From a bacterium HR30 (GTDB taxonomy: Bacteria > Desulfobacterota > Binatia > HRBIN30): a DNA stretch of 33,302 nucleotides. Below the pieces are notes generated by a model. That model did no database searches and was not told where the DNA came from. It saw nothing but the letters and a program-made list of their open reading frames with translations. Location of the stretch: positions 1 to 33,302 of the forward strand of contig BEIG01000028.1 of the NCBI GenBank assembly GCA_002898795.1, in the 5' to 3' direction. The position numbers and the translations under genes are program-made. Positions 2-21,908 of this stretch are shown piece by piece. Numbering within the stretch: position 1 is the stretch's first letter; every line of letters starts with the position of its first letter.

Positions 2-2404
2 GAACTGGCCTGGCACGTGGGGTTCGCGGCGGGTGGAGTCTCCGAAGCAAAGAAGTCGTACGCACGTGTTGCGGCCGACGACGAGCGCGCTACCAGCCCA
101 GGAGACGCCCTGCGGGAGTTGTTCAACACCTACGGTCCGTGCCTGGTCCTGATTGACGAGTGGGTGGCGTACGCCCAGCAGTTGCACGACACCCCGGATC
201 TACCGGGGGGTACCTTCGACACGCAATTCACCTTTGCGCAGGCGCTCACGGAGAGCGCGCGGGCCGTGAAGAACTGTCTGGTGGCGGTCTCCCTGCCGGC
301 TTCTGACACGCTCCCGTCCCCCCACGCCACGGCCGAAGACATCGAGGTGGGCGGAGTGCGCGGGCGGGAGGCACTAGACCGGCTGCGCAATGTGATTGGC
401 CGCATCGAGTCGCCTTGGCGGCCCGCAAGTGCCGACGAGAGTTTCGAGATCGTCCGCCGGCGCCTGTTCCAGCCCATGACGGACCCCGAGCAGTTCAAGG
501 CGCGCGATGTAACGGCCAGGGCCTTTGCCGACCTCTACCGCACCCAGAAGGGCGAGTTCCCCGCCGAGTGCGCCGAGGGCGAATACGAACGTCGGCTCAA
601 GGGTGCGTACCCCATCCACCCCGAGGTGTTCGCACGCCTGTACGAAGACTGGTCTACCCTGGCCAAGTTCCAGCGCACGCGGGGTGTGCTCCGCCTCATG
701 GCGGCGGTGATACACACCCTTTGGGAGCGGGGCGACCGGAACCCGCTGATCCTGCCCTGTACCATTCCGATGGACGACCACCGGGTGCAGTTCGAGCTTA
801 CCCGGTACTTGTCGGAGAACTGGGTACCGGTGATCGAGAAGGACGTGGACGGACCGAACTCGCTGCCGGTGCGGTTGGACTCTGAGGTGCCCAACTTGGG
901 CAAGTACCACGCCTGCCGGCGGGTGGCGCGCACCATCTACCTTGGCTCAGCCCCGACTCAGCGAGCGGCCCATCAGGGGGTCGAGGACCGTCGCATCCGG
1001 CTGGGCTGCGTGATGCCGGGAGAGGCTCCAGCGGTCTTCGGCGACGCGCTGCGGCGGCTAGCGGGCGAGGCGACCTACCTCTACCAAGACGGGACCCGCT
1101 ATTGGTACTCCACGCAGCCCACGGTCACAAAGATTGCGGAAGACCGCGCGGCGCGGCTGGCTCGGGAGCCAGAGAAGGTGGCGCGCGAGATCGAGCGGCG
1201 GGTGCGGGAGGACGTACGACGGCGTTGTGGCGAGTTCTGCCGCGTCCACGACTTTCCGCGCACCAGTCAGGATGTGCCCGACGACTTCGACGCGCGGCTT
1301 GTCATCCTCACGATCGATCACCCCCATACAAAGGGTCAGGAGAGCCCCGCCCTGGTATTCGCCAAGGAGATCCTCGAGCGGCGCGGCCACTCCCCGCGCC
1401 ACTACCGGAACACGTTAGTCTTTCTGGCAGCGGATCAGGCGCGGCTGCAGGACCTTGAGGAGGCCACGCGGCGGTACCTGGCCTGGGAGTCCATCCTACA
1501 GGATAAAGAAGACCTGGACCTTTCCCCGCACCAGGTGCGGCAGGCCGAGTCGCAGAAGGCGGCTGCCGACGCCACGGTGGCGGCGCGCCTGCCCGAAACG
1601 TTTCAGTGGCTACTGGTGCCGGTCCAGACGGATCCGCAGACCGAAGTCACCTGGCAGGAAATCCGTCTGCAGGGCAATGAGGGACTTGCGGTGCGGGCAA
1701 GTACGAGGCTCGTGAGGGAGGAGCTACTGTTGACGCGGCTGGCCGGCACGCGCCTGCGGATGGAGCTGGACAAGATCCCGCTGTGGCGCGGGGATCATGT
1801 GTCCATCCGGCAGCTCATAGAGGACTTCGCTCACTACATCTACTTGCCGCGTCTTAGGAGCCCCGCCGTGCTCGCCGAGGCCGTGCGGGACGGCATGGGA
1901 CTTCTGACCTGGGAACGGGAGTCCTTTGCCTACGCCGACAGTTTCGACGAGACAGGCGGCCGCTATCGAGGGTTGCGGGCTGGAGGGCACATCTCGCTGC
2001 CAGATACCGACCCTCCGGGGCTGCTCGTGAAACCCGAGGTTGCGCGCAGGCAGCTCGATACCGAGCAACGGCCCGCTGGCCAAGTCCCCGAGGGGGTGTC
2101 GGGGGCCGCCGGCGGGGAGCCTGGGGGAACAGCCGGTGGTGGGGCGACCGCGACCTCTGTACCTGCGCGCCCGCGCCGTTTTCACGGCAGCGTGAGCCTC
2201 GATCCGCTGCGTGCCGGCGCCGACGCCGGCAAGATCGCCCAGGAGGTGATTTCCCATTTGGCAGGTCTTCCAGGGGCACAGGTTCGGGTGACCCTGGAGA
2301 TCGAGGCGACCGTGCCGGGAGGTGTTCCTGACCCCGTCGTCCGTACCGTCACAGAGAACAGTCGGACGCTGAAATTCACCAGCCAGGGGTTCGAAGAGGA
2401 ATAG
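2..2404 (+). CDS. DUF499-family ATPase, 5'-truncated by the window edge
   Basis: The reading frame is open back to the first bases (Glu-Leu-Ala-Trp-His precede the GTG at 17), so the N-terminus, probably with the P-loop, lies outside the window. About 800 codons remain. Near the visible start, a hydrophobic strand ending in LVLIDEWVAYAQQL looks like a Walker B strand, followed by the FDTQFTFAQALTE stretch typical of DUF499 proteins. The C-terminal ~90 residues follow a Gly/Ala-rich linker and form a small separate domain. DUF499 proteins are large AAA-type ATPases, usually found beside DUF1156 DNA methyltransferases and helicases in presumed phage-defence loci (family knowledge). No partner is visible here; any would lie upstream. 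Downstream are a RAYT and an hsdR remnant, which fits the edge of a defence island (inference). Confidence 0.75.
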   Translation, partial: ELAWHVGFAAGGVSEAKKSYARVAADDERATSPGDALRELFNTYGPCLVLIDEWVAYAQQLHDTPDLPGGTFDTQFTFAQALTESARAVKNCLVAVSLPASDTLPSPHATAEDIEVGGVRGREALDRLRNVIGRIESPWRPASADESFEIVRRRLFQPMTDPEQFKARDVTARAFADLYRTQKGEFPAECAEGEYERRLKGAYPIHPEVFARLYEDWSTLAKFQRTRGVLRLMAAVIHTLWERGDRNPLILPCTIPMDDHRVQFELTRYLSENWVPVIEKDVDGPNSLPVRLDSEVPNLGKYHACRRVARTIYLGSAPTQRAAHQGVEDRRIRLGCVMPGEAPAVFGDALRRLAGEATYLYQDGTRYWYSTQPTVTKIAEDRAARLAREPEKVAREIERRVREDVRRRCGEFCRVHDFPRTSQDVPDDFDARLVILTIDHPHTKGQESPALVFAKEILERRGHSPRHYRNTLVFLAADQARLQDLEEATRRYLAWESILQDKEDLDLSPHQVRQAESQKAAADATVAARLPETFQWLLVPVQTDPQTEVTWQEIRLQGNEGLAVRASTRLVREELLLTRLAGTRLRMELDKIPLWRGDHVSIRQLIEDFAHYIYLPRLRSPAVLAEAVRDGMGLLTWERESFAYADSFDETGGRYRGLRAGGHISLPDTDPPGLLVKPEVARRQLDTEQRPAGQVPEGVSGAAGGEPGGTAGGGATATSVPARPRRFHGSVSLDPLRAGADAGKIAQEVISHLAGLPGAQVRVTLEIEATVPGGVPDPVVRTVTENSRTLKFTSQGFEEE

Positions 2405-2812
2405 TGATCCACGGGGCGCACACACGGTAGGGGCAGACCCACGTGTCTGCCCCGATCCCCATGACCCGATGGGCGCACACATGGCCGCACGCACGGGTAC
2501 CATGGGCGCACACGGTAGGGGCAGACCGACGTGTCTGCCCCGATCCCCATGACCCGATGGGCGCACACATGGGCACGACGGGCGCACACGCGGGCGCACA
2601 CATGGGCGCGACGGCCGCACACACGCGCACCACGGGCGCGCACGCGGGCGCACACGCCGGCGCGATGGGCACACACATGGGCGCACACACCGGTACCAGG
2701 GGCGCACGCGGTAGGGGCAGACCTACGTGTCTGCCCCCGATCCCCATGATCCCCATGATCCCCGTGATCCACGGGGCGCACACGTAGGTGCGCCCCTACG
2801 CGTCGATGCGGG
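2405..2812. repeat. REP-like palindromic array before the RAYT gene
   Basis: Three copies of a palindrome with arms GGGGCAGAC / GTCTGCCCC and a 6-nt loop lie at 2430-2453, 2518-2541 and 2714-2737. A related palindrome with arms GGGGCGCAC / GTGCGCCCC lies at 2773-2796. The first two copies sit in near-identical units with an 88-bp offset (palindrome, then GATCCCCATGACCCGATGG, then GCGCACAC). Between the second and third copies (about 2560-2712) is a degenerate minisatellite built on GGGCGCACAC. The phrase GTGATCCACGGGGCGCACAC occurs at both ends (about 2404 and 2764), as if bounding a block. Open frames across the array are low-complexity products of the repeat. The location beside a RAYT gene supports a REP/BIME-type element. 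Confidence 0.85.
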
Positions 2813-2849: not shown

Positions 2850-3572
2850 ATGAAATACGACCCCAACAAACACCACCGCCGCAGCATCCGCCTGAAAGAT
2901 TACGATTATTCCCAGCCGGGTGCGTATTTTATCACCATCGTGACCCAGGATCGGGTGTGCCTGTTCGGCGATGTTGTGGATACGGAAATGCGGTTGAATG
3001 ACGCCGGACGGATGGTCCAAAAATGGTGGGGCGAATTGAATCACAAATTTCCGAACGTACAAACCGACGAATACGTCGTCATGCCCAACCATTTCCACGG
3101 AATTGTCCTGATAATGTCCAATCCCGTAGGGGCGGTAGGGGCAGACCCACGTGTCTGCCCCGACAATTCGGGCGCACACATGGGCACCACGGGCGCACAC
3201 GCGGTAGGGGCAGACCCATGTGTCTGCCCCGATCCCGATGACCCGATGCGCGCACACATGGGTACCAGGGGCGCACACGCCGGCGCGGGGGGCGCACACA
3301 TGGGCGCACACATAGGTGCGCCCCTACCGGGGATTGTCCGATGGTTTAAAACGATGACGACCAATGAATACATCCGTGGGGTCAAACAATCCGGCTGGCC
3401 GCCGTTTAACGGTCGGTTGTGGCAACGCAATTATTACGAACACATCATCAGGAACGACGAATCCCTGAACCGCATTCGACAATACATCGCCGACAATCCG
3501 CGGCGCTGGGCCTTCGATCGCGAAAACCCGGCGGCCATAGCACCAGAACCGGAAAACCCATGGCGCATCTGA
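2850..3572 (+). CDS. REP-associated tyrosine transposase (RAYT, Y1/HUH family)
   Basis: Single-strand DNA transposase-like protein of 240 aa. The N-terminus (SIRLKDYDYSQPGAYFITIV, residues 12-31) and the HUH motif in MPNHFHG (78-84) are typical of the family, as is the C-terminal helix WQRNYYEHIIRNDESLNRIR (191-210) with candidate Tyr residues. RAYTs are thought to bind, cut and join REP palindromes. The ATG at 2850 was chosen because the family's usual N-terminus begins here and GAAGG lies 10 nt upstream; the frame is open further 5' only through repeat sequence. Residues about 94-158 are translated REP array rather than family sequence (see the repeat at 3126-3327), lengthening a protein that is otherwise about 175 aa. 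The gene outside the insert is less GC-rich than its neighbours, which suggests transfer. Whether the protein is active is unknown. Confidence 0.9.
   Translation: MKYDPNKHHRRSIRLKDYDYSQPGAYFITIVTQDRVCLFGDVVDTEMRLNDAGRMVQKWWGELNHKFPNVQTDEYVVMPNHFHGIVLIMSNPVGAVGADPRVCPDNSGAHMGTTGAHAVGADPCVCPDPDDPMRAHMGTRGAHAGAGGAHMGAHIGAPLPGIVRWFKTMTTNEYIRGVKQSGWPPFNGRLWQRNYYEHIIRNDESLNRIRQYIADNPRRWAFDRENPAAIAPEPENPWRI
3126..3327. repeat. REP palindrome array inserted in frame inside the RAYT coding sequence
   Basis: The same elements as upstream of the gene: arms GGGGCAGAC / GTCTGCCCC at 3138-3161 and 3207-3230, GGGCGCAC / GTGCGCCC at 3302-3323, and GGGCGCACAC minisatellite copies between them. The block starts and ends with the inverted pair GTAGGGG ... 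CCCCTAC. It encodes low-complexity residues such as GADPRVCP and GAHMGTT without breaking the transposase frame, and lies between the HUH strand and the C-terminal Tyr-containing helix. Confidence 0.9.
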
Positions 3573-3697
3573 CGGAATCCGGCGTCGAATCCGCCGCGCT
3601 TGGCTGGCTCGAGGCCATCGCCTCGCGGATCGCGCACGGAGCCGGCATCGCGCCGGATCAGCGCCTCACCGAGCGGCGCGACTGTGCCGATCTAGTA
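3560..3697 (+). pseudogene. Remnant of a type I restriction enzyme R subunit (HsdR) N-terminus
   Basis: From the ATG at 3560 the frame reads MAHLTESGVESAALGWLEAI ... HGAGIAPD ... ERRDCADLV. It closely resembles the start of HsdR proteins of type I restriction-modification systems (MTES-VE-AAL-WLE, then HG-DIAP, then ER-DY). The similarity stops after about 46 codons. The frame then runs on as an unrelated Arg/Pro-rich reading, and none of the nuclease or helicase motifs of the roughly 1000-residue HsdR follow. It overlaps the 3' end of the RAYT gene by 13 nt, so the transposon end may have joined or captured the hsdR start. The match is to remembered family patterns, not to a search. Confidence 0.6.
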
Positions 3698-3875
3698 CGA
3701 GAGCCCGCTTGCCAAGCTCGACCTTCCCGAGCACCTGAAGCCGAAGCTGGAGAAACACGCAGTGTGGCGCGCCTTGTTCCACGGGTTCGATTGGTCGATG
3801 CCCGCAGCCGGAGGTGGGCCACACCTCCCCGTGTTCTCCCTCGTGCCGGCGGCTTGTTCCCGAGCGGGTAACGTG
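3696..3875 (+). other. Unrecognised coding-like relic between the hsdR remnant and larC
   Basis: Directly after an in-frame TAG (3693-3695) a different + frame opens and reads ESPLAKLDLPEHLKPKLEKH, then AVWRALFHGFDWSMPAAGGG. The composition is protein-like (amphipathic, Leu/Lys/Glu spaced) but there is no start codon with a ribosome site. It is probably the decayed 3' end of another gene from the defence or mobile region. I do not recognise the family. Confidence 0.3.
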
Positions 3876-3904
3876 CCAAGCAAAACCAGAGAGCAGGCGC
3901 GGCC

Positions 3905-5080
3905 ATGCGGATCCTTTACTTCGATGCTTTTGCTGGCGTGAGCGGAGATATGACCGTAGGGGCCCTGCTTTCCTTGGGCCTGCCACTGGATGCGGTGCGC
4001 GATGCGCTGGTCGAACTGGACCTCGGAGACTACGAACTCCTGGCCTTTCCGCGCGAGGTTAGTGGAATCTCTGCTTCGAAATTCCAAGTCAGCCTTCCGC
4101 CCCATGCTCCGCACACGCACCGCTCGTTCCGCGATATCCGCTCGATGATCGAGCGGGCACGTCTTCACCCATCGGTCCAGCAAATCGCCCTCGATATCTT
4201 CCACCGCCTGGCGGTGGCAGAAGCGCGGGTGCACGGTGTGATTCCTGACGACGTGACCTTCCACGAAGTGGGTGCTGTGGACTCCATCGTGGATATCGTG
4301 TCCACGGCCGTAGGTCTCCACCACTTCCAAATCGAAGCCGGCTTCGTCAGCAAACTCCCGCTGGGCAAGGGAGTGATACGCGCCCAGCATGGAGCGTTGC
4401 CGGTGCCTGGACCGGCAACGCTGGAACTGCTGCGCGGCTTTCCGGTTTGCTTCGGCGACGGGGAAGGGGAACTCGTCACCCCGACCGGCGCAGCCATCGT
4501 GGCTACGGTGTGCAAACCGGGGCCGCCTCCGCCGCTCACCGTTTGTGGCATCGGTTACGGCGCCGGCGATCGTCAGTGGACCGACCGCCCGAATCTTTTG
4601 CGCCTCGTGCTCGCCGAGCCCGCACCGATGCCACTCGAGGACGAGTTGCTGGTCGTGGAAACCAACATCGACGACATGCCGCCAGAGTGGTTCGATTGGA
4701 TTTTCGAGCGGCTGTTCCGCGCCGGCGCCCGCGACGTGTGGCTAAGCGCGGCACAAATGAAAAAAAATCGCCCCGCAGTGGTTTTGCACGCGCTCGTCGA
4801 CTCGGCACAACATGCCAACGTGGTCCGCACGATGCTCGATGAAACAACCTCCCTCGGGGTGCGCAGCTACCCGGTTCGACGCCACACTCTCGTCCGCGAA
4901 GAACGCACGGTGGAAACTCCTTACGGCACCGTGCGCATCAAAGCGGCCCGCATGCCCGACGGGCATTGGAACCTGGCGCCCGAGTACGATGACTGCAAAC
5001 GCTTGGCCCAAGAAGCCAACGTACCCTTGAAACTCGTTTACCAAGCCGCGCTGGCGGCGGCGCGATCGAGCGGTAACTGA
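3905..5080 (+). CDS. larC: LarC, nickel-pincer cofactor biosynthesis (nickel insertion) protein
   Basis: LarC inserts nickel, using CTP, into the pyridinium dithiocarboxylate nucleotide made by LarB and LarE, giving the cofactor of lactate racemase LarA and related enzymes (family knowledge). The protein is full length at 391 aa. It starts with the family's MRILYFDAFAGVSGDM and carries FHEVGAVDSIVDI (119-131), VTPTGAAI, ETNIDDMPPEW and the MKKNRPA segment. In some firmicutes larC is split into larC1/larC2 joined by frameshifting; here it is one continuous frame. No larA, larB or larE is in the window, so the client enzyme is unknown. The next gene, a sugar kinase, lies 112 nt downstream on the same strand. 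Confidence 0.93.
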   Translation: MRILYFDAFAGVSGDMTVGALLSLGLPLDAVRDALVELDLGDYELLAFPREVSGISASKFQVSLPPHAPHTHRSFRDIRSMIERARLHPSVQQIALDIFHRLAVAEARVHGVIPDDVTFHEVGAVDSIVDIVSTAVGLHHFQIEAGFVSKLPLGKGVIRAQHGALPVPGPATLELLRGFPVCFGDGEGELVTPTGAAIVATVCKPGPPPPLTVCGIGYGAGDRQWTDRPNLLRLVLAEPAPMPLEDELLVVETNIDDMPPEWFDWIFERLFRAGARDVWLSAAQMKKNRPAVVLHALVDSAQHANVVRTMLDETTSLGVRSYPVRRHTLVREERTVETPYGTVRIKAARMPDGHWNLAPEYDDCKRLAQEANVPLKLVYQAALAAARSSGN

Positions 5081-8427: not shown

Positions 8428-8452
8428 CCGGGAGCGCGGGCGTCCCGTCCGG
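8428..8452. repeat. Dispersed GGGAGCGC-GGGCGTC palindromic repeat copy
   Basis: The stretch CCGGGAGCGCGGGCGTCCCG resembles the repeat at 30502-30530 (GGGAGCGCAGGCGTCTCGCC). It is a weaker, partly decayed palindrome. It lies just upstream of the bactofilin start and directly abuts the tandem array that begins at 8453. Confidence 0.5.
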
Positions 8453-9264
8453 ACATCGCCTCAACACATGTGTGCCTACGACGCGTTGGTGGCGTTTCAG
8501 CCGGGTTGGCGACGCACGTGGTGGTGGAGGCAAGGGCGCATTGCCATGCGCCCCTACTCCAAAACGCGCACCGTGGTAGGGGCGCACGGCAGTGCGCCCG
8601 CGGTTTCGATCAGCACCAGTGCGCCCCGTAGACGCAATCGAGCCCAGCGGCGTTACCGCGTGCCCCGGAGAAGTGAAGGTGGGGGTGTGGAGTGCGAAAG
8701 CCATGCTTTCGCGGGCATCGCGTCAGCGATGCCACCGCGACACCCTTCCGGGACCGCACACGTCCCCGTCCGCACATCGCCTCAACACATGTGTGCCTAC
8801 GACGCGTCGGTGGCGTTCCAGCCGGGTTGGCAACGCACGTGGTGGTGGAGGCAAGGGCGCATTGCCATGCGCCCCTACTCCAAAACGCGCACCGTGGTAG
8901 GGGCGCACGGCAGTGCGCCCGCGGTTTCAATCAGCACCAATGTGCCCCGTAGACGCGATCGAGCCCAGCGGCGTTACCGCGTGCCCCGGGAAGTGAAGGT
9001 GGGAGTGTGGAGTGCGAAAGCCATGCTTTCGCGGGCATCGCGTCAGCGATGCCACAGCGACACCCTTCCGGGACCGCACACGTCCCCGTCCGCACATCGC
9101 CCCAACACATGTGTGCCTACGACGCGTCGGTGGCGTTCCAGCCGGGTTGGCAACGCACGTGGTGGTGGAGGCAAGGGCGCACTGCCGTGCGCCCCTACAG
9201 GGTGGCGCCTGGGTGCGCGAGGAGGTCGACCACCCTCCAGGGACCGCACACGTCCCCGTCCGCA
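8453..9264. repeat. Tandem array of a ~321-bp unit with four hairpins per unit
   Basis: Unit 1 is 8453-8773, unit 2 is 8774-9093, and unit 3 starts at 9094 and is interrupted after about 9197. Its last ~25 bp (GACCGCACACGTCCCCGTCC) reappear at 9241-9264. Units 1 and 2 are nearly identical. Each full unit holds four palindromes with 8-bp arms: GGGCGCAT/ATGCGCCC (8534-8553, 8855-8874), GGGCGCAC/GTGCGCCC (8580-8599, 8901-8920), GCGAAAGC/GCTTTCGC (8694-8712, 9014-9032) and GGCATCGC/GCGATGCC (8714-8733, 9034-9053). Loops are 3-4 nt. In unit 3 the first stem reads GGGCGCAC/GTGCGCCC (9175-9194). Open frames across the array are repeat artefacts. It fills the whole space between the bactofilin start and the dppF stop; no gene is supported here. 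Confidence 0.92.
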
Positions 9265-19845: not shown

Positions 19846-20125
19846 CTCGCCCTGCCCACTTAGCAGTTTGCAATTTGCCACACGTCCTCTCGGCTTTGCT
19901 AGTCCCCTCGCCCGCCGGCCAAGGGGATCGACCAGCCCAGGCGGGCTAGGTAGGAGTGAGTGGCCGATCCCCGACCCAACGCTTGCTTCCGACGAGGGCG
20001 AAGTCAGGATTTCGTCTTTCGCGCCTTTCGGAAAGCGGGTCTTGCCCGGCAGCGATGCCTCGGTCGGCGTGTGGAGGCACGCTCGGTGCTAACGCATGTC
20101 GAATTCGTTCTAGAGGTACCTCGCC

Positions 20126-20416
20126 ATGACAGCGATCGATGCAGGCGTGTTGGTGGCTTTGCTGACCACGGTGGTCATGGGGTTAATGGTGCTAGCGTTC
20201 TATCTCATGCGCGATACGGACACCACGCCAGACCGGCGGTTCGTGGTCAGCCTCGTTTGCCCAGTGCGAAAGGAGTCAGCCCGCGTCGACGTACTCGAGC
20301 AGCGCCGCAGTGGAATTGTTGTCCGTACCGTGCGGTGGTGCTCCTTGCGGGCAGCCGGAGAGCGCTGTTGCGAGCAGTGCGTCTGGCGCCTTCCCGCCGC
20401 TGCCACCCACGCCTGA
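20126..20416 (+). CDS. Small Cys-rich single-span membrane protein, hypothetical
   Basis: Predicted 96-aa protein. A single hydrophobic helix (about residues 8-27, VLVALLTTVVMGLMVLAFYL) is followed by a polar domain with VVSLVCPVRKESARVDVLEQ and a cysteine group in RWCSLRAAGERCCEQCVW. The Cys spacing could bind zinc or a redox metal, but that is a guess. GAGG lies about 10 nt before the ATG (TCTAGAGGTACCTCGCC). It is divergent from recC and 127 nt upstream of the aldehyde dehydrogenase on the same strand. The coding signal comes from the clean membrane-helix and polar-domain layout plus the ribosome site. I do not know a named family for it. Confidence 0.6.
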   Translation: MTAIDAGVLVALLTTVVMGLMVLAFYLMRDTDTTPDRRFVVSLVCPVRKESARVDVLEQRRSGIVVRTVRWCSLRAAGERCCEQCVWRLPAAATHA

Positions 20417-20500
20417 CCACACTTTGTCGCCCCCGCCCCGGTTGACAGCAAAGGCAACATCGAAGGCAAGCCTTACGCAAAGTCCCTCTTCCAAGCGTCG

Positions 20501-20523
20501 GCTGGCCTGGAAGCCAGGCCAGC
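20501..20523 (+). promoter_or_regulatory. Perfect 10-bp hairpin in the aldehyde dehydrogenase leader
   Basis: GCTGGCCTGG (20501-20510), AAG loop, CCAGGCCAGC (20514-20523). It ends about 10 nt before the AAGGGG ribosome site and 20 nt before the ATG. There is no U-run after it, so it is not a canonical terminator. A consensus-like -35 (TTGACA, 20442-20447) lies upstream but no good -10 at normal spacing. It could affect translation or mRNA stability, or be a dispersed palindrome. Confidence 0.45.
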
Positions 20524-20543
20524 GCGGTGGCTAAGGGGCAAGT

Positions 20544-21908
20544 ATGGTCTTCACGTCGGTATGCCCCAGTACGGGCAAGGTGTTGCGCACGTTCGAGCCG
20601 TACTCCGACGCAAGGGTGGAACGCATTTTGGCCCAAGCCCGGAAGTATGCTGGGCACTGGCGGGAGCAGCCAATCGCGCGCCGCGCTCAGCTCGTGGGCC
20701 GCGTGGGCGCCGAGTTGCGTCGCCAGCGCGATGCGCTGGCGCGCCTCATCGTGCGCGAGATGGGGAAACCGATCGGGCAAGCGCGCGCAGAAATCGAGAA
20801 ATGCACCTGGGTTTGTGAATACTACGCCGAACACGGGCCGCGCTTTCTTGCGCCGGAAGAGGTGAGCACCGAGGCCAATCGGAGCTATGTGCGGTTCGAC
20901 CCTTTGGGAGTCATCTTGGCCATCATGCCCTGGAATTTTCCCTTTTGGCAGGTGTTCCGCTTTGCTGCTGGTGCGGTGGTGGCGGGCAACACCGTGGTCC
21001 TCAAGCATGCAGCCAACGTTACCCTGTGTGCACTTGCCATCCAGGCGCTTTGGCGGCGGGCAGGGGCCGAGAACGGGCTTTTCCAGGTCGTGCTGGTCGA
21101 AAACGAACGCGTGGGCCGCCTGATCAGCGATCCCCGAGTGGCGGCCGTAACCCTAACCGGAAGCGAGCGAGCGGGTCAGGCCGTTGCCTCGCTCGCCGGG
21201 CAACACGTCAAGAAATGCGTGCTCGAACTCGGTGGTGCCGACGCGTTCCTCGTCTTGGCCGACGCAGGCATCGAGAGCGCGGCCAAGGCCGCCGCCGAAG
21301 CGCGCACCATCAACTCAGGCCAAAGTTGCATTGCGGCAAAACGGATCATCGTGGAGCGGGCAGTTTACCGCGAGTTTCTTCCAGCATTCGTTGCTGCCAT
21401 GGAAGGCTGCAAGGTGGGCGATCCGTTCGACGCTGACACGCGCATTGGTCCGCTAGCCCGAGCCGACCTTGTGGCAACGTTGCACCGGCAAGTGGAAGAG
21501 TCGGTCCGACTGGGCGCCAAAGTGGAACTCGGGGGTAAGCCGTTGAATCGGCCCGGGTTTTTCTACCCACCAACGGTTCTCACCGGGGTGAGGCCCGGAA
21601 TGCCGGCATTCGACGAAGAGGTGTTCGGGCCAGTGGCTGCGGTCATCGTTGCCCGCGACGCTGACCACGCCGTGCACCTGGCCAACGCCAGCCGCTACGG
21701 ACTGGGCGCGGCCATTTGGAGCCGCAACCGCAAGCGTGCAGAGGCACTCGCAGCGCGGCTCGACGTGGGTGCCGTGCACATCAACGACGTAGTGCACTCC
21801 GATCCCCGCCTACCTTTCGGCGGCGTGAAGCACTCCGGCTACGGACGAGAACTCGGAGTTTACGGGATCCGCGAATTCACCAACATCAAAAGCGTCGTGG
21901 TGCGCTAG
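20544..21908 (+). CDS. NAD(P)-dependent aldehyde dehydrogenase, succinate-semialdehyde dehydrogenase-like
   Basis: Oxidises an aldehyde to the acid; succinate semialdehyde is the likeliest substrate by resemblance to the short GabD-type group. The protein is 454 aa. Landmarks: IMPWNFPFWQVFR (Asn131), VVLKHAANV with the cofactor-binding Lys154, LTGSERAG, general-base Glu228 in CVLELGGADAF, catalytic Cys262 in INSGQSCIAAKR, then EEVFGPVAAV and LPFGGVKHSGYGREL near the C-terminus. All key residues are present. AAGGGG precedes the ATG at 20544. It stands alone on the + strand after the small membrane protein; the next + gene is about 0.9 kb away and unrelated. No operon context helps fix the substrate. 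Confidence 0.93.
   Translation: MVFTSVCPSTGKVLRTFEPYSDARVERILAQARKYAGHWREQPIARRAQLVGRVGAELRRQRDALARLIVREMGKPIGQARAEIEKCTWVCEYYAEHGPRFLAPEEVSTEANRSYVRFDPLGVILAIMPWNFPFWQVFRFAAGAVVAGNTVVLKHAANVTLCALAIQALWRRAGAENGLFQVVLVENERVGRLISDPRVAAVTLTGSERAGQAVASLAGQHVKKCVLELGGADAFLVLADAGIESAAKAAAEARTINSGQSCIAAKRIIVERAVYREFLPAFVAAMEGCKVGDPFDADTRIGPLARADLVATLHRQVEESVRLGAKVELGGKPLNRPGFFYPPTVLTGVRPGMPAFDEEVFGPVAAVIVARDADHAVHLANASRYGLGAAIWSRNRKRAEALAARLDVGAVHINDVVHSDPRLPFGGVKHSGYGRELGVYGIREFTNIKSVVVR

Follow-up and report, generated by a model that had tools for sequence, protein, structure and literature searches.

In-frame REP palindromes inside a RAYT transposase gene and their association with the linker and helix that follow

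Why should the gene of a RAYT (TnpA-REP) transposase carry, in frame and within its own coding sequence, palindromes that the enzyme may mobilise? This question is raised by a gene in the window, by which we mean the whole stretch of 33,302 nucleotides analysed here (contig C28 of a source genome of 3.7 Mb in 211 contigs). At stake is the way in which a RAYT selects its REPs, and what keeps the two matched as enzyme and substrate diversify and move between genomes. The features concerned are as follows.

2404 to 2799, forward strand: array upstream of the gene, with the same REPs and GGGCGCACAC repeats as the insert.
2850 to 3572, forward strand: intact RAYT/TnpA-REP coding sequence of 240 amino acids, matched by NF047646 and in Foldseek.
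3081 to 3098, forward strand: HUH motif MPNHFH, residues 78-83, of which 78-81 and 83 are invariant in an alignment of 57 sequences.
3126 to 3327, forward strand: REPIN-like insert, residues 93-159, from the 5' foot GTAGGGGC to the 3' foot GCCCCTAC; when folded as DNA, it has its two outer ends paired.
3138 to 3161, forward strand: REP palindrome, copy 1, with its GTAG foot at 3135.
3207 to 3230, forward strand: REP palindrome, copy 2, with its GTAG foot at 3204.
3302 to 3327, reverse strand: inverted REP GGGCGCACACATAGGTGCGCCCCTAC, from which the half-palindrome repeats GGGCGCACAC derive (inverted pairs I2 and I3).
3324 to 3392, forward strand: helix alphaC of the AlphaFold2 model, residues 159-181, which together with a short linker is the proposed recognition segment; the homologous segment predicts REP type.
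3483 to 3485, forward strand: Tyr212, the presumed catalytic tyrosine, an invariant column in alignments A2 and A3.

The earlier note on this DNA had recognised a RAYT gene here, and this was borne out. The ORF has no internal stop, and the NCBIfam profile REP_Tyr_transpos (NF047646) matches it with an E-value of 1.2e-15 in two stretches, the match being split by the insert; the score of 57.7 bits is below the curated cut-off of 80, and that of Pfam Y1_Tnp is 21.7 bits (cut-off 23). The predicted structure has the TnpA fold, its Foldseek matches being IS608 TnpA, ISDra2 TnpA and E. coli TnpA-REP (4er8) with E-values of 2e-5 to 3e-5, and all 57 aligned homologues share H81, H83 and Y212. The dN/dS ratio (omega) of the RAYT core was 0.09-0.55 in sixteen pairs, that is, under purifying selection, which rules out a dead gene for the family. 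For the window RAYT against that of locus L047, omega was about 0.10 at a dS near saturation.

The insert lies between strand E81-88, which bears the HUH motif, and helix H159-181 (alphaC), thus in the beta3-alphaC loop, and the placement between the HUH strand and the tyrosine helix that had been read from the sequence is correct. Its size had been given as about 200 bp and 65 residues; with the first GTAGGGGC (3126) and the last GCCCCTAC (3327) as its ends, it measures exactly 202 nt, or about 67 residues. The insert had also been said to keep the frame. The ORF is indeed open, but 202 nt is not a multiple of three, so the frame is kept only jointly with the flanks. The insert is made up of GTAG-footed REP palindromes and GGGCGCACAC repeats; in it are two GTAGGGGCAGACCCAYGTGTCTGCCCC copies, a run of GGGCGCACAC half-palindromes and the inverted GGGCGCACACATAGGTGCGCCCCTAC. 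From its sequence, the GGGCGCACAC minisatellite looks like one arm of the REP rather than a separate repeat. In the AlphaFold2 model the pLDDT of the insert is about 43-62 in ten-residue blocks and that of most of the core is above 90. The insert is therefore predicted to be disordered, in line with the suggestion that it sits in a tolerant surface loop.

The same palindromes are found elsewhere in the source genome. There are 12 copies of GGGGCAGACCNNNGTGTCTGCCCC in the whole genome, as compared with 0 for a reversed-pattern control: those at 3138 and 3207 in the gene, those at 2430, 2518 and 2714 in the adjoining upstream array, and 7 on contig C54. The shared copies bear out the view that insert and upstream array consist of the same repeats. 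On C54 an intergenic array of about 1 kb belongs to the REP family of the window RAYT (about 20030-21110 of the contig, 3023-4110 of locus L039); no RAYT ORF was found inside this array. A palindrome-derived insert occupies the beta3-alphaC loop in each of the five RAYTs or RAYT remnants of the source genome, and several families are represented: the GGGTTT type in C115 (three copies), the GACCCG type in C2 and the ACGGCA type in C46, in addition to that of the window, while C75 holds a decayed remnant with palindrome-derived sequence in its loop. At the same site the encoded peptides read VGADPRVCP, VGAGFKPAPT, VGATRRVAPT and GRGTPCRAPT, with a decayed fifth. An exact search of the source genome, of a kind that misses REPIN-type repeats, found no other copy of the exact double-foot palindrome of C46.

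To what extent is such an insert a general property of RAYTs? Loops were collected by a related-locus search (80 loci from many phyla) and by searching whole genomes from the phylum of the window, 97 of 395 of which matched. Together these yielded 149 usable RAYT loops, a sample selected for similarity to queries that bear inserts. In 139 of the 149 loops REP feet were present when one mismatch at most was allowed; in control stretches of the same genes the 5' foot was found in 4/150 and the 3' foot in 3/150. In a second phylum, reached via one Chloroflexota genome, 44 of 49 loops had feet. Among the RAYTs sampled, the internal palindrome insert is nearly universal. Its palindromes belong to many families, but the feet are nearly always of the GTAGGGGC/GCCCCTAC type. 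Neither objection that the earlier note had raised against itself held: other assemblies have the insert too, and only a small minority of homologues (10/149) lack a detectable foot. A misassembly or one-off insertion is ruled out by the other RAYTs of the source genome and by more than 180 loops elsewhere. In the loops of L078, L097, L109 and L222, tandem repetition extends up to several hundred nucleotides and the frame is still open.

RAYT group 4 of Bertels et al. 2017 is reportedly the same as TnpA-REP subclass 2.4. We assign the window gene to this group on the strength of its in-frame REPs between the HuH and Y motifs, in the beta3-alphaC loop, and the assignment is accordingly a probable one. 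What had been taken for the invasion of one gene by palindromes is instead the normal state of this group, and it is already published, so that the window gene adds one more example. In the part of their paper that concerns us, Quentin et al. 2018 (PMC6006769) describe REPs in frame inside tnpA-REP genes of subclass 2.4, generally between the HuH and Y motifs, and say that they may have little effect on activity. The likeness extends to REPs with a GT[AG]G foot or double foot both flanking and inside the gene, in frame in the beta3-alphaC loop, and to a distribution scattered across many phyla. The window insert differs in being long (202 nt), with tandem half-palindrome repeats.

Other systems resemble this one in part. 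E. coli TnpA-REP (REPtron; 4er8) shares the HUH/Tyr fold, GTAG-tagged palindromes, co-evolution of enzyme and REP, and contact of helix alpha3 with the REP; it belongs to group 2, however, and has bulged REPs flanking the gene, no described internal REP and a C-terminal extension. Corneloup et al. 2021 (PMC8266576), who studied three enzymes of groups 2 and 3, found that K82 in the conserved DNA-binding helix alpha3 of the E. coli enzyme contacts the REP, and we take alpha3, by analogy, as the equivalent of alphaC. The TnpA proteins of IS608 and ISDra2 (IS200/IS605) also have the HUH/Tyr fold and recognise hairpins in single-strand DNA, but their palindromes bound the element outside the gene and no internal copies are known. 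Palindromes in frame in protein genes are known from the intragenic GTAG REPs that Di Nocera et al. 2013 (PMC3733652) describe in other genes and from the Rickettsia palindromic elements (works cited there). These occupy varied sites in many unrelated host genes, whereas the internal REPs of RAYTs are confined to a single loop of their probable mobilising enzyme.

What is conserved is the DNA of the palindrome, in either stop-free frame, and not the encoded peptide. The 5' foot is in frame 0 in 109 loops, in frame 1 in 25 and never in frame 2, in which GTAG would read as the stop TAG. One and the same palindrome, GTAGGGGCACGGCATGCCGTGCCCCTAC, translates to RGTACRAPT in one set of genes and to VGARHAVPLP in another. 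Where a loop has just one double-foot palindrome (29 loops), 169 of 174 positions of the inner arms are complementary. Palindromes of the same type are 95.8% identical as compared with 36% at fourfold sites, but this comparison is partly circular because the types were defined from the palindrome, so the case for conservation rests on arm complementarity and frame use.

REP type follows the residues next to the insert. Two geometries were found: a single double-foot palindrome with a helix-to-W spacing of 17-22, and two different REPs in inverted orientation with a spacing of 23-25 (long helix), the class to which the window RAYT belongs. In the short-spacing class the segment KPLGRLIGAFKTVSTK goes with GGTTCG, HGLSEIVRAFKTFSAR with GGGTTT, SPSQTIGAIVRGFKS with GTATTG, GSIPTIVRSFKSAVTK with ACGGCA, RRKMLLPKIVGWFKM with AATTCA and GTSKTIGSIVRGFKIG with GAAAAA, and further pairings exist. 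The 13 REP types used below are our own and were set by six bases each, with the label of L170 corrected on inspection (n = 61 and 16). With close relatives removed, leave-one-out nearest-neighbour assignment recovered the type in 55/61 cases when based on the 12-residue linker, 41/61 with alphaC, 28/61 with the N domain and 10/61 with the C domain; under the strictest cap the counts were 19/27, 17/27, 1/27 and 2/27, respectively. For held-out Chloroflexota they were 15/16 for the linker, 14/16 for linker plus alphaC, 10/16 for alphaC alone, 9/16 for N and 4/16 for C, the 16 scored being those within the 13 types, outside which 21 other short-spacing Chloroflexota loops fall. Mean mutual information with REP type was 0.132 for linker plus alphaC, 0.042 for N and 0.011 for C.

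In partial Mantel tests of the short-spacing class, REP correlated with alphaC once the N and C domains were controlled for (r 0.31, p 0.001); no significant correlation was found with the N domain given the others (r 0.03), and none with the C domain. For long-helix genes a contribution of the N domain was significant as well (r 0.16 and 0.14, p 0.01 and 0.04), and shared ancestry therefore explains part of the association there. The changes of REP type needed were 20 on a helix-only alphaC tree and 26 on an N+C tree. Because 20 changes are still needed, the helix alone is an imperfect key and the linker is the better marker. As judged from these comparisons of sequence, REP type is tied to the approximately 12-22 residues right after the insert (the linker and the start of alphaC) and not to the rest of the protein. 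The relevant part of PMC6006769 does not mention such a matched unit of REP, linker and alphaC, and no description of it was found in the open-licence literature searched. Within 3 kb of the genes there were 93 REP copies of the gene's own type and 36 of all other types together; for 33 of 61 internal REPs, no own-type copy was found within 3 kb. From this cognate matching it is plausible that the window RAYT mobilises these palindromes.

One pair of genes points to an exchange of the whole stretch. Between L164 and L172, DNA identity is 202/240 (84%) upstream, 22/39 (56%) in the linker up to FK and 140/159 (88%) downstream, and their REPs differ. The linker of L164 is closer to that of L103 (30/39), a gene with the same REP type (ACGGC-type genes), yet the N domain of L103 is more distant (163/240). 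The REP-linker-alphaC stretch thus looks swapped between two otherwise very similar genes. L190/L182 shows a weaker version of the pattern, and L164/L172 is the only clear swap pair. In L125, L162, L164 and also L170, which differ in REP type, there is a common C-terminal tail like PITEYGVEAWMV, which suggests a further exchangeable end segment.

We consider it fairly probable that the window gene is a group-4 RAYT (TnpA-REP subclass 2.4) whose insert is the cognate substrate, kept beside its reader as a specificity cassette. The wider proposal is that group-4 RAYTs carry a swappable cassette of palindrome, linker and recognition helix in one frame, the gene sequence stating which hairpin is read, which would provide a natural code of recognition for more than a dozen families of palindromes; to this we give an even chance. 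The RAYT would act as a single-strand DNA nuclease of the HUH/Tyr kind, with a REPIN of its own cognate REPs encoded in the beta3-alphaC loop. AlphaC, corresponding to the DNA-binding helix of E. coli TnpA-REP, may read the REP hairpin together with the linker, and the gene would therefore hold the substrate right beside its recognition part. Recombination between the shared feet and the conserved alphaC codons would exchange both halves at once, and this joint exchange would keep enzyme and substrate matched as RAYTs diversify or change genomes. A disordered loop would make the encoded peptide harmless. Substrate and reader in one exchangeable stretch may be the reason for the wide spread of the insert. 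If each group-4 gene labels its substrate in this way, hundreds of ready enzyme-substrate pairs would be available for decoding hairpin recognition by HUH enzymes, with the natural swaps L164/L172 and L190/L182 as built-in tests. This would be a transposase with its substrate held in its own coding sequence as DNA, not as protein.

The main rival is neutral self-insertion, which we regard as rather unlikely. A REP multiplied by the RAYT would land mostly near the gene and survive in the tolerant, disordered beta3-alphaC loop; REP type would follow alphaC only since alphaC sets what moves, with no gain from the internal copy. The predicted disorder of the insert fits this, as does the small impact on activity suggested by Quentin et al. 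2018 (PMC6006769, in the part concerned). Other tolerant spots also carry REPs, namely the C-terminal tails of C46 and L164/L172, the tail REP of C46 being of another type, and the tandem expansion of inserts such as that of the window resembles unselected growth. The site and the cognate type are thereby explained. An occupancy of about 93% across phyla, however, is high for neutral insertion, and it is the non-REP linker codons beside the insert that predict REP type best, which argues for joint transfer. Among asymmetric REPIN pairs, most of those classifiable are in one orientation (22 left-right and 2 reversed, not independent events), and in some genomes, such as G116, the internal REP is the only exact copy; both are less expected of neutral insertion.

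Autoregulation, in which the protein would hold down its own expression by binding or cutting REP hairpins in the mRNA or transcribed DNA, appears very unlikely to us. Preservation of the palindrome as DNA rather than peptide agrees with it, and as single-strand DNA the insert folds better than all 200 shuffles (z -3.8). As RNA, however, it is only modestly more stable than its shuffles (z -2.5, with 4 of 200 as good), and the minimum-energy fold lacks the REP hairpins, which weakens the suggestion in the earlier note of regulation through mRNA hairpins. Tethering of the protein to its own transcript, also raised there, drew no support from these observations. REPs documented in translational control are not far from start and stop, unlike those considered here. 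That the low-complexity peptide itself is functional, through linker length, oligomerisation or DNA tethering, is highly improbable. The insert is present in nearly all members and its feet yield recurring VGA...APT/APLP peptides, but the reading of one palindrome in two frames, giving different peptides, disfavours a conserved peptide function, and the HUH-to-helix loop of the surveyed RAYTs ranges from 21 to more than 120 residues and varies widely in composition.

The neighbourhood of the window RAYT contains traces of other genes. A short frame at 2806-2853, RVTDAERFLKARGL, resembles the C-terminus of HsdS and is overlapped by the RAYT start (ATGA); a decayed frame at 3561-3710, like the HsdR N-terminus of L042, is overlapped by the RAYT stop. 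The RAYT of L042 has an HsdS-like tail on one side and an intact HsdR on the other. A regular-expression scan found an hsdS-like tail upstream in 10/135 loci and both sides in 3/135, so RAYTs as a general feature of hsdS-hsdR junctions were rejected. Upstream of the array, 17-2404 encodes a DUF499/HmaC-like AAA+ ATPase belonging to a candidate defence system (PADLOC HmaC, E 6e-260). Further along the window, at 8444-9198, there is a tandem repeat with a period of 321, 2.4 copies and 96% matches.
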